Source of the DNA: Actinocrinis puniceicyclus
GTDB taxonomy: Bacteria > Actinomycetota > Actinomycetes > Streptomycetales > Catenulisporaceae
DNA: 63,147 nucleotides
Assembly: GCF_018283645.1 (NCBI RefSeq)
Contig: NZ_JAGSXH010000025.1
Location: 1-63,147 of the forward strand
Reading direction: 5' to 3'
A program made the position numbers and the translations under genes. The notes beneath the pieces were generated by a model. That model worked only from the letters and a program-made list of their open reading frames with translations, ran no database searches and was not told the origin of the DNA. Below are positions 18,512 to 44,681 of this stretch, piece after piece (position 1 is the stretch's first letter; every line of letters begins with the position of its first letter).

Positions 18512-19318
18512 TCAACACAGCGCCGTACGCAGTCGGGCGAGCACGGAGGCGAGCAGCCGCGAGATGTGCATCTGCGAACAACCGAGGCGCGCCCCGATCT
18601 CCCGCTGGGTCATCCCGTGGAAGAAATGCATCATCAGGATGCTGCGATCCCGCTCGTTCAGCTGCGCGATCAGCGGTTTGAGCGCCGTACGGTTCACCAC
18701 CGTCTCGAAGCGCGCGTCCTCGCCGCCGATCAGGTCGCCCAGGCTCGGGGCACCCGGTTCGCCGCGCAGCGGCCGGTCCAGCGAGGCGACGGTGTAGCCG
18801 TCCAGCGCCACCAGCGCCTCGGTCACCAGTTCGGCGGGCGCGCCGACGTGCTCGGCGAGCTCGGCGACGGACGGCGAGCGGGCCAACTGCCGGGTGAGCT
18901 GTTCGGCGGCGGCGCGCACCGTGCGCGTCAACTCCTGGACGGACCGCGGCACGTGTACGTCCCAGGTCGCGTCCCGGAAGTACTTCTTGATCTCGCCGAG
19001 CATCACCGGCGTGGCGTAGCCCAGGAACGCCGTGCCGCGCTCCGGGTCGAACTGGTCCACTGCCTTCACCAGCGCCAGGTAGGCCACCTGGACGAAGTCC
19101 TCGACCAGTTCTCCGCGGCCGCCGTAGCGCAGCGCGATGTGGCGCGCATAGGTCAGATGGTCCTCGATCAGCGCGGCGCGCAGCGCGCCGCGTTCCGGAT
19201 CGTCGTCGTTCAGCGCGCGCAGCCTGCGGAAGCGGCGTAGCGTCTCCGCGCGCTGCTCGGCGCGTGCGCCCGTGTTCCGGGCGGTGGCCTGCGCGTTCGG
19301 GTCTTGGTTACATGCCAC
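18512..19318 (-). CDS. RNA polymerase sigma factor, SigB/SigF/SigG stress family
   Basis: About 268 residues. Region 2 is clear (HLTYARHIALRYGGRGELVE, VAYLALVKAVDQFDPERG, ATPVMLGEIKKYFRD) and is followed by HVPRSVQEL, region 3 and a region 4 helix-turn-helix (MTQREIGARLGCSQMHISRL). This is the group controlled by partner switching with anti-sigma kinases and STAS antagonists. The start is uncertain; GTG at 19318 begins just before a family-like N-terminus and has no strong ribosome site. No anti-sigma gene is adjacent, but MEDS-STAS and MEDS-ATPase proteins occur at 23.6-25.4 kb and 43.7 kb. Confidence 0.88.
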   Translation of the reverse strand: MACNQDPNAQATARNTGARAEQRAETLRRFRRLRALNDDDPERGALRAALIEDHLTYARHIALRYGGRGELVEDFVQVAYLALVKAVDQFDPERGTAFLGYATPVMLGEIKKYFRDATWDVHVPRSVQELTRTVRAAAEQLTRQLARSPSVAELAEHVGAPAELVTEALVALDGYTVASLDRPLRGEPGAPSLGDLIGGEDARFETVVNRTALKPLIAQLNERDRSILMMHFFHGMTQREIGARLGCSQMHISRLLASVLARLRTALC

Positions 19319-19411
19319 GGCAGCGACGATTCCGAGTCGGCCACCGTGACGGTGTGGCTGTGTGCATCGCTTGCATGAGGACCACGGTAGTAAGATCCAA
19401 CAGATCGCTGT

Positions 19412-19437
19412 ATTGCGCAAATGTGACCGTGCGCAAT
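19412..19437. promoter_or_regulatory. Palindrome upstream of the sigma factor gene
   Basis: ATTGCGCA (19412-19419) and TGCGCAAT (19430-19437) are perfect 8-bp arms with a 10-nt spacer, roughly 100 nt upstream of the proposed sigma-factor start and in the only AT-richer part of the 342-bp gap 19319-19660. This could be an operator or contain its promoter elements. I see no gene in the gap. Confidence 0.5.
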
Positions 19438-19660
19438 CAACGGGCTTCGCTTCCTGCGCCTTCGTCCGGCGACGGCGGCGTCTTGCGCGTGCCGCAGATC
19501 GATCGAAGGGATGATGGGGCCGGCGCGGCCCGGGTGGCACGCTGTGCGCCGCCTCGCAGCACCGATCGCCCACATGGCCGTATCGCCGGAAGGTACGGGC
19601 TGGCCGCGCGTCACGCCGCGCGCGTCACGCAGAGACCGGTGAGAACGTGGGGGAATGTCG

Positions 19661-23157: not shown

Positions 23158-23412
23158 ATGAGCCAGTGGTCCGAGGAGATGCGCAAGGCCGAGCAGTTGG
23201 CCAAGGAGCACCCCGAGCAGGCGAAGCAGGCGCTCCAGAAGGGAGAGCAGTTCGCCGAGCAGCGGACCGATCACCGCTTCGATCAGCAGATCGACGCGGC
23301 CGGCCGGCAGGCCGAGCAGCGCTTCGGCGGTGGCCAGGACCCGGGCCAGGCGCAGAGCGGGCAGCAGGACCAGGGCGCGCAGCCGGAGCAGGGCCAGCAG
23401 CAGGACCGGTAG
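23158..23412 (+). CDS. MT0933-like antitoxin-family small protein, Gln/Glu-rich
   Basis: 84 residues, highly charged and hydrophilic. The first half (KAEQLAKEHPEQAKQALQKG, then EQFAEQRTDHRFDQQIDAAG) resembles the MT0933/Rv0909 antitoxin family, in which a helix of paired Lys/Asp residues precedes an RTxxRFxxQI-like stretch. The second half is Gln/Gly/Asp low complexity. ATG at 23158 follows GAGGAGGAG. No toxin gene is adjacent, so a CsbD-like or general stress role is as likely as an antitoxin role. Confidence 0.6.
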   Translation: MSQWSEEMRKAEQLAKEHPEQAKQALQKGEQFAEQRTDHRFDQQIDAAGRQAEQRFGGGQDPGQAQSGQQDQGAQPEQGQQQDR

Positions 23413-23618: not shown

Positions 23619-24449
23619 ATGGTCGAGGCGGCGCGACTTGCGGAGGGTTTTCGCGCGCTTGGACCAGGCGAGCACGTGTGCTGGCTCGTCGGTTCGAGCG
23701 AGGATTACGCGCTCGGCGCGGAGACATTCGCGGCGCAGGGAAAGTCCTTGGATGAGCGTTTGCTCATCGTCGGTCGGCACCCCGGTGGCGAGCACACCCG
23801 TCTTGGCGGCGCTGTCGTCATCGACCCTGTGGCCGACGGTCGTCTGGCCGCAAACGGGCCGACCGCGCCATGGGATTTCATCAACCGCCGCATAAACCGC
23901 CGCGTCGGCGGGATGGACGTCGGGGCCGGCCGCGGGGGTACGCTTCGGGTGTTGGCACAGATGGAGCGCCTCGTGCCACCCGGCTGCGGCCTCAACGACC
24001 TGGTCGAGCTCGAACTCGGCTGGGGTCAGTGGGCCGCGAGCAGCGGAGCGAGCGTGGTATGCGCTTACCGGCAGGACGCCTGGCAGGAGTCGATCTTGCG
24101 GGATGTCTCGTGCGTGCATTCCGGTCAGATGGGTAACCGGCGGCTCGCGGTCAGCTTCCGGATGAGTTACGTCGCGGCCGGCTGCTGGAGGGTGGACGGC
24201 GTGATCGACTTCGTCGCCGCTCCGGCCTTCGGCACCGCGACGCGCGCGGCGCTGACCCGCAACGGGCTGGTGCGGCTCCGATTCGACGGACTGGACATGA
24301 TCGACGCGGCGGGCATCCAGGCACTCGCACACGCGGTGCGGGCGGTGCGCGGCGCGAAAGTACGCGTCGAGGGGGCGAACACGACGGTGCGCCGGCTCTG
24401 GCAGCTCTCCGGGTTCAACACCGCGGCAGTGGCGGTGGAGATCGCGTGA
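23619..24449 (+). CDS. MEDS-STAS sensor protein (anti-anti-sigma-like)
   Basis: 276 residues. The N-terminal part (about 15-175) is a MEDS domain, starting GEHVCWLVGSSEDYALGAE; MEDS domains were named from DcmR-type sensors and are thought to bind small ligands. The C-terminal part (about 195-276) is a STAS domain with RLRFDGLDMIDAAGIQALAH. At the loop where SpoIIAA/RsbV carry the phosphorylated Ser (DSSG/DSTG) it has D229-A230-A231-G232, so no Ser or Thr is available. The stop overlaps the GTG of the MEDS-ATPase gene (GTGA). It probably binds an anti-sigma kinase without being switched off by phosphorylation. Confidence 0.8.
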   Translation: MVEAARLAEGFRALGPGEHVCWLVGSSEDYALGAETFAAQGKSLDERLLIVGRHPGGEHTRLGGAVVIDPVADGRLAANGPTAPWDFINRRINRRVGGMDVGAGRGGTLRVLAQMERLVPPGCGLNDLVELELGWGQWAASSGASVVCAYRQDAWQESILRDVSCVHSGQMGNRRLAVSFRMSYVAAGCWRVDGVIDFVAAPAFGTATRAALTRNGLVRLRFDGLDMIDAAGIQALAHAVRAVRGAKVRVEGANTTVRRLWQLSGFNTAAVAVEIA

Positions 24450-25411
24450 CCCCGCTCAGCCCGCCCGCCACCGGATCGCAGTCGACCGGTCTACGCCACG
24501 TCTTCTATCCCTACGAGGGCCAGGATCAGTACCTGCCGGGCATCGTCTCCTATGTCGAGATGGCGCGTGCGGACGACGCGACCGTGTTGGTATGCGCTCC
24601 CGAGCCGCGCTCGCACGTGCTGCGCCAGGCGCTGCCGGACGACGGCACCGTCTGCTTCCTCGATCCCACCGCGCTGGGCCGCAACCCCGGCCTGCTGATC
24701 GGCGCCTGGCAGGACTGGATCGGCGAACGCACCCGCGAAGGGCGTGCGGTCTGCGGGCTGAGCGAGTACCAGTGGACCGGGCGCACGAGTGCGCAGCTGT
24801 CCGAGATGCGATACCGCGAATGGCTGCTTAACCTCGCGTTCGCGCAGGCACCGACGTGGTCGCTGCTGTGTCCATACGACACGGCCGACCAATCGCCGCA
24901 GGACGTGCTCGCGATCGCGCGCAGCCACCCGCTGCTGTGGGACGGCGCCGGGTTCGCGCCGGGCCGCGACTACGTCGAGGGCCCGTACGAATTCGACCCG
25001 CTCTCCGAACCGCCCGAAGCGGTGGAGGAAATGCCGTACACGATCTCCGAACTGGCGCTGTTGCGTCACACCGTGGCGACGCGCGCTGCGGCGCTGGGCC
25101 TGTCGCCGGAACGGGTGCGCGATTTCGTGGTCGCGGTGAGCGAGGTCGCGTCGAACAGCATCCGCCACGGTGGCGGGCGCGGCGTGCTGCGCGCGTGGGC
25201 CGGATGCGGTTATCTCGTGTGCGAGTTGACCGACTCGGGTTACATCTGCGATCCGCTGGCCGGGAGGTTGCGCCCCACCGGAGACCAGATGGGCGGCCGC
25301 GGCCTGTGGTTCGCGCACCAGTTGTGCGACCTCGTGCAGATCCGGTCGACCCGCAGCGAGGGCACGCGCGTGCGCCTGCACATAGAGCTGCCTGACCCGA
25401 AGGAGCGTTGA
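24446..25411 (+). CDS. MEDS domain plus HATPase_c (RsbW-like) anti-sigma kinase
   Basis: 321 residues. A MEDS domain (about 16-170; HVFYPYEGQDQYLPG) is followed by a GHKL ATPase (about 200-315) with N-box [12 protein letters not shown] (Glu233, Asn237), G1 box DSGYICDP and G2 region [13 protein letters not shown]. There is no HisKA dimerisation domain or phosphorylated His, so it is an RsbW/SpoIIAB-type serine kinase, not a two-component sensor. The GTG start overlaps the MEDS-STAS stop, implying a stoichiometric pair. A paralogue lies at 43722. The likely target is a SigB-type sigma factor such as that at 18512. Confidence 0.82.
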   Translation: MTPLSPPATGSQSTGLRHVFYPYEGQDQYLPGIVSYVEMARADDATVLVCAPEPRSHVLRQALPDDGTVCFLDPTALGRNPGLLIGAWQDWIGERTREGRAVCGLSEYQWTGRTSAQLSEMRYREWLLNLAFAQAPTWSLLCPYDTADQSPQDVLAIARSHPLLWDGAGFAPGRDYVEGPYEFDPLSEPPEAVEEMPYTISELALLRHTVATRAAALGLSPERVRDFVVAVSEVASNSIRHGGGRGVLRAWAGCGYLVCELTDSGYICDPLAGRLRPTGDQMGGRGLWFAHQLCDLVQIRSTRSEGTRVRLHIELPDPKER

Positions 25412-43721: not shown

Positions 43722-44681
43722 GTGAGCGACACACCCGTCCCCTCCGACCCGCTCGAGACCGGGCTGCGCCATCTGCTCTACCCCTACACCGGTGCGCAGA
43801 ACTACCTGCCCGGGCTGCTCGCGTACGTGGATGAGGCGCTCGCCGTCGGCGCGAGCGTCGTCGTGTGCGCGCCCGAGGAGCGCGTCCATCTGCTGCGCAA
43901 GCACGTGGCCGCGCACGACGCGGTCGCCTACATGGACGCCGGTACGCTCGACGCCAACCCCGGGCGGCTGATCCCGATGTGGAAGGACTGGGTCGACCAG
44001 CGCGGCCGGAAGGGGCCGGTTTACGGCATCGCCGAGTCGGTCTGGCGCGGACGCAGCGCCGCACACCTGTCCGAGCTGTGGTACCACGAATGGCTGCTCA
44101 ACCAGGCGTTCACCCGGCATCCGGCGTGGTCGCTGCTCTGCCCGTTCGACACGGCCGACCAGTCTCAGGCCACCGCACGGGCGCTGAGCCGTTCGCACCC
44201 GCTGATCTGGGACGGCGCGACGAGCGTCACCGGAACGCAGTACGACCCCGGGCCGTACCCATACGAGCCGTTCCCTGATCCGCGAGACTCGTACCAGGAG
44301 ATGCCGTACACGATCGACGACCTGACAAGGGTCCGCGAACACATCGGCGCCTGGGCCTCCTGCCGGGGCATGGCGCAGGCGCGGACCGGCGACCTGCTGC
44401 TCGCGGTCACCGAGATAGCCTCCAACAGCATCCGGCACGGCGGCGGCCGCGGCGTGCTGCGCACCTGGGCAGAGGACGGCGCCCTGGTGTGCGAGTTCCG
44501 CGACGACGGGCTGATCGCCGACCCGATGGTCGGCCGCAGGCGCCCCATGGCGGACCAGATCGGCGGCTGCGGACTGTGGTTCGCGCACCAGCTGTGCGAT
44601 CTGGTGGAGATCCGTTCCGCTCCGCGCGTCGGCACGAGCGTGCGCCTGCACATGAACCTGGCGCGCGAGGAGGCGGCGTGA
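43722..44681 (+). CDS. MEDS domain plus HATPase_c protein, paralogue of 24446
   Basis: 319 residues. Same architecture as the protein at 24446: MEDS start [18 protein letters not shown], shared [14 protein letters not shown] and [13 protein letters not shown], then a GHKL ATPase with N-box [13 protein letters not shown]1 DDGLIADP and [19 protein letters not shown] (G2). No HisKA domain. Here the partner is not STAS but an alcohol dehydrogenase: the stop overlaps that gene's GTG (GTGA). GTG at 43722. It probably binds and inhibits a sigma factor or its antagonist in response to a small molecule. Confidence 0.82.

Follow-up and report, generated by a model that had tools for sequence, protein, structure and literature searches.

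Descriptions of partner switching usually centre on a kinase/phosphatase cycle acting on an antagonist protein. The locus described here raises the question of whether such a switch can be run by an antagonist that offers no residue to phosphorylate at the usual site. In the window, by which we mean the whole stretch of 63,147 nucleotides from Actinocrinis puniceicyclus that was analysed, two overlapping genes encode a STAS protein and an RsbW-like ATPase, both carrying a MEDS domain, and the STAS domain reads DAAG at the place of the phosphorylated residue.

The gene pair and its domains

Both open reading frames lie where the first-pass annotation had placed them, and their overlap, of 4 nt, was confirmed. 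The composition of the pair can be read directly from the sequence, while the folds come from models:

23619..24449, plus strand: MEDS-STAS protein, 276 aa, putative unphosphorylatable antagonist (ORF, Pfam; AlphaFold2 model with mean pLDDT 91.9)
23673..24119, plus strand: MEDS domain of MEDS-STAS, residues 19-167 (Pfam), RecA/KaiC-like in the model, without Walker A
24186..24419, plus strand: STAS domain of MEDS-STAS, residues 190-267 (Pfam), top structural match RsbV 6m36_B
24303..24314, plus strand: DAAG motif of MEDS-STAS, residues 229-232, with Ala230 at the canonical phospho-serine position
24446..24449, plus strand: GTGA overlap of 4 nt between the MEDS-ATPase start and the MEDS-STAS stop (read from the sequence)
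24446..25411, plus strand: MEDS-ATPase, RsbA-family anti-sigma-like protein, 321 aa (ORF, Pfam, NCBIfam; model with mean pLDDT 89.8)
24494..24931, plus strand: MEDS domain of MEDS-ATPase, residues 17-162 (Pfam), RecA-like fold in the model, without Walker A
25043..25378, plus strand: GHKL ATPase domain of MEDS-ATPase, residues 200-311, with N-box Glu233 and Asn237

All four Pfam domain matches exceed the cut-offs: over the residues listed, MEDS-STAS matches MEDS with E 1.7e-11 and STAS with E 2.7e-8, and MEDS-ATPase matches MEDS with E 2e-17 and HATPase_c_2 with E 6.5e-15. With Pfam MEDS (PF14417) scores of 44.7 and 64 bits, respectively, against a cut-off of 29.8, both proteins are members of this family. 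They had been described as fused to the same MEDS domain, which holds at the level of the Pfam family; the sequences themselves, however, are strongly diverged, comparison of the two MEDS alignments with hhalign giving a probability of 66, an E-value of 5.6e-5 and 16% identity. In the NCBIfam scan, MEDS-ATPase belongs to NF041045 (“RsbA_anti_sig”, anti-sigma factor RsbA family regulatory protein; 298.7 bits over residues 17-313, cut-off 210), and no model reaches its cut-off with MEDS-STAS. A small ORF just 5' of the pair (23158-23412, plus strand) matches Pfam MT0933_antitox (E 3e-13).

Recurrence and linkage of the pair

A profile of five MEDS-STAS proteins was compared with 293 genomes of the order, with scoring limited to the top 8 candidates in each. 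This gave 30 strong MEDS-STAS loci (265-387 bits) in at least 28 of the 293 genomes, followed by a gap down to 89.5 bits or less. The search across genomes that had been proposed for this gene pair thus shows a recurrent arrangement, which is for this reason not due to chance. A MEDS-ATPase directly follows MEDS-STAS in all 30 loci of this order sample, and a start codon placing the two genes in a 4-nt overlap is present in 29 of them (17 ATG, 12 GTG), none being found for L066; these overlaps represent available start codons, which the script favoured wherever present. An additional 14 distant MEDS-STAS loci (13 from the order profile search, and L038) are referred to as type B; a related ORF follows in 13 of the 14, with overlaps of 4, 11 or 14 nt, the ORF at L070 being partial.

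A second sample, the named-genome set, results from an ATPase-alignment scan that yielded 55 loci in Streptomyces, Kitasatospora, Actinacidiphila and Actinospica. MEDS-STAS is found directly upstream of MEDS-ATPase in 53 of these (52 by script and L109 by eye), with no MEDS-STAS detected by tblastn at L125 and L133, and all 52 scripted pairs have a start codon giving the 4-nt overlap (26 ATG, 25 GTG, 1 TTG). The two samples appear to overlap, and a single strain accounts for both L117 and L118, which give the same reading, so that the counts are not independent. Outside the order, among 396 genomes of the phylum that were scanned, a strong MEDS-STAS occurs in another class (genome G558, locus L161), with DVAG and a MEDS-ATPase overlapping by 4 nt; the two other such proteins that were read, at L185 (DCAG) and L189 (DVDG), have no MEDS-ATPase in the ~1.4 kb downstream. 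Since the scans of the order and of the phylum scored between 5 and 8 candidates in each genome, the numbers of genomes are minimum values.

L069, a MEDS-STAS fragment with a stop, was left out before counting, and a STAS-only match on another contig of the A. puniceicyclus genome (C111) was counted with the STAS-only class described below. In L069 the stop codon breaks the MEDS-STAS match before the MEDS-ATPase frame, and the locus is possibly a pseudogene. The protein alignments contain 46 of the 52 scripted named pairs (L100, L107, L117, L118, L134 and L135 being left out) and that of the window. A correlation of 0.96 between the distances of the two proteins over 47 pairs was set aside as evidence, as it is explained by shared species history.

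Desaturase-like FAD genes of one cluster are present in the flanks of the pair at L090, L092, L103, L127 and L134 (the one scanned, at L090, being an Amino_oxidase), and a polyprenyl-synthase-like cluster is also found at L090, L103 and L127; these neighbours are suggestive of carotenoid clusters. Another neighbour cluster, from 12 loci, was considered as PP2C phosphatases and proved to be mixed: the four members scanned are two SpoIIE proteins, one of them in a large multidomain frame, and two histidine kinases.

A STAS domain without a phospho-acceptor

AlphaFold2 models were built from 47 MEDS-STAS and 48 MEDS-ATPase sequences. The MEDS-STAS sequence gives weak STAS matches when compared with solved structures, and its STAS domain is predicted to adopt an RsbV-like fold, superposing on RsbV chain 6m36_B with Z 14.3 (rmsd 1.8, 95 aligned residues). 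This chain has M-D-S-T-G at the site that aligns with a DSSG STAS from the same genome as the pair. RsbV Ser56, which directly follows the Asp, is presented in the available portion of PMC7340262 as the residue that RsbW phosphorylates and as contacted by RsbW Glu49. Because of the 6m36_B alignment and the position of Ser56 directly after the Asp, Ala230 is assigned to the phospho position, as expected from the earlier observation of DAAG at this place, and MEDS-STAS lacks the Ser/Thr after the conserved Asp that characterizes canonical RsbV and SpoIIAA.

The same is true of the other MEDS-STAS proteins. The phospho position is Ala in 30 of 30 proteins of the order sample (type A), with Ser/Thr in 0/30; in the named-genome set, it is Ala in 49 and Val in 3 of 52, and Gly in L109, with Ser/Thr in 0/53. 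Type B proteins have Leu (13) or Val (1) and Ser/Thr in 0/14, and the three proteins read outside the order have Val, Cys and Val. As to whether DAAG is conserved, Ser/Thr is therefore absent throughout both the order sample and the named set, Ala being usual and Val or Gly rare. A Ser/Thr just one residue after the phospho position is found in 3 of 30 proteins of the order sample and 3 of 52 of the named set. The natural variants L111, L123 and L127 read DASG, as does the SpoIIAA S58A mutant that was crystallised with SpoIIAB (1tid); the change in this mutant is Ser58 to Ala, as given in the part of PMC13373217 that was available.

As a control, 14 other STAS domains of the same genome were read (excluding those of the window and of the C111 sister locus): an acceptor is present in 8 of them (Ser in 7, Thr in 1) and missing in 6, and one, L141, also has DAAG, so that the idea of a motif unique to this pair was rejected. 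Since 6 of the 14 lack Ser/Thr, acceptor loss is not special to the pair. Judged from these sequences, it is not rare in such a genome, and what is special is its constancy in the linked MEDS-STAS family. In contrast, Ser occupies the phospho position in 8 of 8 ORFs of one other STAS cluster near the named loci (7 of 55 loci). Altogether, the sequence comparisons support the notion that phosphorylation of the MEDS-STAS antagonist at the canonical site is impossible.

An ATPase that retains its catalytic residues

A single MEDS-ATPase sequence returned no match among solved structures, and a profile search led to RsbW; the modelled GHKL domain matches both SpoIIAB (1l0o_A, Z 16.2) and RsbW (6m36_G, Z 15.9). 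Glu233 and Asn237 align with the RsbW N-box and are present in 48 of 48 aligned MEDS-ATPases (47 paired ones and a second one of the window, listed below), as are the Asp-x-Gly and Gly-x-Gly motifs. Both Glu and Asn are also kept in 11 of 11 MEDS-ATPases filed with a STAS-only partner (L196 included) and in 43 of 45 others, two having a gap. This suggests that MEDS-ATPase is a working kinase, pointing to some substrate, and kinase chemistry may persist even though the linked antagonist offers no serine. The N-box Asn is lost in six MEDS-ATPases paired with type B proteins (L072, L074, L076, L077, L079 and L080), which are apparently degenerate ATPases.

43722..44681, plus strand: second MEDS-ATPase of the window, sharing 51% identity with the paired one; possible competitor or paralogue

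No STAS gene was found upstream of this second gene, nor in 46 of 66 MEDS-ATPase rows (repeats included), with a home-made STAS profile that diverged STAS domains can escape.

The pair had been taken to make the usual phosphorylation cycle impossible. This stands for the canonical site of MEDS-STAS, given the lack of Ser/Thr, but does not extend to the whole cycle, since the catalytic Glu and the N-box Asn are kept in every aligned ATPase and a DSSG STAS adjoins some loci. Indeed, an ordinary DSSG STAS frame opens less than 100 nt after MEDS-ATPase, on the same strand, at L108, L112 and L125 (the latter without MEDS-STAS). MEDS-ATPase could thus be an active kinase on a second, ordinary STAS; MEDS-STAS would then be a constant partner, itself not regulated, that sets a threshold as a buffer, scaffold or decoy. 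The main evidence for such a switch with two antagonists is the conserved N-box residues, intact in 48 of 48 aligned ATPases, together with the DSSG STAS of these three loci; DSSG/DSTG STAS ORFs are found in 7 of 55 loci in all, the genome itself encodes several DSSG/DSTG STAS proteins, and what is available of PMC8346170, on coelicolor, has been cited in favour. However, 48 of the 55 loci have no ORF of that STAS cluster within flanks of up to 6 kb, and the six distant-subfamily loci without the N-box Asn imply that kinase activity is not always needed. We regard this possibility as tentative and, on balance, unlikely.

MEDS domains and a sister arrangement

Both MEDS domains resemble RecA/KaiC-type proteins in the models, with many tied matches of this type in each case: that of MEDS-STAS matches Elp456 with Z 12.8 (rmsd 3.4, 157 aligned) and KaiC with Z 12.1 (rmsd 3.2, 157 aligned), and that of MEDS-ATPase matches Elp456 with Z 12.8 (rmsd 3.4, 159 aligned) and KaiC with Z 11.7 (rmsd 3.5, 156 aligned). 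Despite this fold match, a Walker A pattern is found in 0 of 47 MEDS-STAS and 0 of 48 MEDS-ATPase sequences, which does not fit an active RecA/KaiC-type ATPase. A bare GK[S/T] occurs in the first 60 residues of one MEDS-STAS among 47, and the GKS of the window protein (residues 41-43) sits where the first RecA-like helix ends, rather than behind the first strand. MEDS is accordingly modelled as a RecA/KaiC-like domain without P-loop. Cys148 and His167 are invariant in MEDS-STAS (47/47), and His19 is present in all 34 sequences having that position; His18, Cys142 and His161 are invariant in MEDS-ATPase (48/48).

According to the accessible text of PMC11507031, which draws on a 2005 paper, MEDS is typically found in regulators whose ligands are simple hydrocarbon derivatives. 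Ligand binding by the MEDS domains of this pair is putative and carried over, by analogy, from that family description.

The first-pass annotation had further named MEDS-MEDS contact as a possible driver of release. A sister arrangement weakens this as an obligatory feature. On contig C111 of the same genome (L151 / L001), a third MEDS-ATPase shares a 4-nt overlap with a STAS gene that lacks MEDS and reads DVAS, and nine further distinct loci of the order have a gene with a STAS match and no MEDS match, reading DVAG or DVDG, in a 4-nt overlap with a MEDS-ATPase. In these STAS-only pairs, Ser/Thr is again absent from the phospho position (0/10); the Pfam STAS family is matched in 10/10 (E 4e-6 or better, L013 and L019 scoring less than the curated cut-off) and none of the 10 matches MEDS. 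L196 was dropped from this class, its 63-aa frame being without any Pfam match. Because the STAS partner of the sister class has no MEDS, MEDS on both sides is not essential, and such a requirement was rejected for the wider family.

It could also be imagined that the amount of protein alone matters: the anti-sigma would always be neutralised and release would occur via transcription, proteolysis or an excess of unpaired MEDS-ATPase, such as the one at 43722, with MEDS as an assembly domain. The frequency of MEDS-ATPases for which no STAS was found upstream and the RecA-like, P-loop-less MEDS models are both consistent with this scenario, but the invariant His/Cys/His of the MEDS domains in both proteins seem more than a pure scaffold needs, and we consider it improbable.

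Links with sigma factors

The window contains one candidate target:

18512..19573, minus strand: SigB/F/G-family sigma factor (TIGR02980, 253 bits, cut-off 234.35)

A pull-down with this sigma factor had been proposed; as the target of the pair, it finds no support in the comparative data: SigB-like genes are present within ~6 kb of only 4 of the 55 named-set loci (3 of the 53 with MEDS-STAS), and none is adjacent. As there is no conserved link and the genome has three SigBFG sigma genes above cut-off, 18512 among them, it is kept as no more than a candidate target.

The sister loci differ in this respect. At L015, the STAS (DVAG)/MEDS-ATPase pair is followed, 127 nt past the ATPase stop, by a SigB/F/G-family gene (282 aa, 295.9 bits, cut-off 234.35), and the order of these predicted genes, STAS - MEDS-ATPase - sigma, is that of rsbV-rsbW-sigB. 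A SigB-like gene is also found downstream of the STAS-only pair L008, and just upstream of a MEDS-ATPase without STAS partner at 8 loci (66 rows, repeats included). From the comparison of these neighbours with those of the named set, a link with SigB-type sigma factors emerges for MEDS-ATPases taken together, but not for the MEDS-STAS pair. The scarcity of SigB-like genes around the pair could mean that it controls a target other than a sigma factor; this is very unlikely, given that sister MEDS-ATPases adjoin SigB-like genes in 10 distinct loci (66 rows, repeats included).

Phosphorylation of MEDS-STAS at a moved site, such as Thr256, with persistence of the cycle, is highly improbable: this residue is Thr in 43 of 47 MEDS-STAS and no other column of the STAS part exceeds 90% Ser/Thr, but it is Ile in 4 of 47 and, in the available text of PMC7340262, RsbW Glu49 contacts RsbV Ser56, the equivalent of Ala230.

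A proposed partner switch with an unmodified antagonist

The reading that we favour, and to which we give about an even chance, is that the pair forms a partner-switching module whose antagonist is permanently without phospho-acceptor, sigma release being set via MEDS and/or ATP/ADP rather than by a kinase/phosphatase cycle on this antagonist. Such a switch would probably operate without phosphorylation of this antagonist. What we infer here is the binding, the ligand, the sigma target and the direction in which the switch works. MEDS-STAS and MEDS-ATPase would be produced in matched amounts, and the STAS domain would bind the ATPase domain, as RsbV binds RsbW, to form a stoichiometric complex. 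STAS would be locked in the binding-competent state, which canonical systems reach only via dephosphorylation. The tightness of the pair would then decide the hold of MEDS-ATPase on a SigB/F-type sigma factor, and would itself be set through MEDS (by a ligand, a redox state or an oligomer change in the RecA-like scaffold) and/or by ATP/ADP on the ATPase.

In a more speculative and rather doubtful version of this module, the P-loop-less RecA/KaiC-like MEDS domains might pair across both proteins in the way that RecA-like subunits associate into rings; the resulting assembly, read via the invariant His-Cys-His, might then hold or free the anti-sigma domain. If so, the partner switch would be under the control of a RecA-like sensor, the antagonist staying unphosphorylated, and would be scattered through a large actinobacterial group. 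The pair in any case provides an opening for studying what MEDS domains sense.

Comparison with known systems

The description of the pair as an undescribed signalling system is too strong. The ATPase is a full-length member of a named NCBIfam family (NF041045, RsbA), although this model covers the ATPase protein only and not its MEDS-STAS partner, and a role for MEDS in SigB control has already been proposed: in the portion of PMC11507031 at hand, this 2024 paper, citing a 2005 paper, gives MEDS as a hypothesised negative regulator of SigB in actinobacteria. No paper on the MEDS-STAS/MEDS-ATPase pair was found among the literature matches listed. The ATPase family, MEDS and STAS are thus already known, and what was not met among these matches is the conserved association of the ATPase with a MEDS-STAS antagonist that cannot be phosphorylated.

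DcmR-type MEDS regulators share the same Pfam domain, but those described in the available part of PMC11507031 are DNA-binding or two-component regulators, unlike the pair studied here. Another STAS / RsbW-like system of actinobacteria is SipA / SigSsdA of Actinoplanes missouriensis, where a constitutive interaction is reported between the antagonist and anti-sigma domains of SipA (PMC10733313). The architecture differs, however: one STAS is joined in a single protein with the RsbW-like domain, another is carried by the sigma factor, and the word MEDS is absent from the portion of PMC10733313 that was available.

The closest parallels remain RsbV-RsbW-SigB and SpoIIAA-SpoIIAB-SigF, which also combine a STAS antagonist with a GHKL anti-sigma factor of the same predicted folds, and whose STAS - ATPase - SigB order is kept at the sister locus L015. 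The present pair differs from them by its STAS domain without phospho-acceptor, by MEDS on both proteins and by the absence of a fixed adjacent sigma gene among the loci compared. As a natural equivalent of SpoIIAA S58A, associated with an ATPase that looks catalytically intact, it makes a phosphorylation-free mode of partner switching directly testable in tractable Streptomyces.
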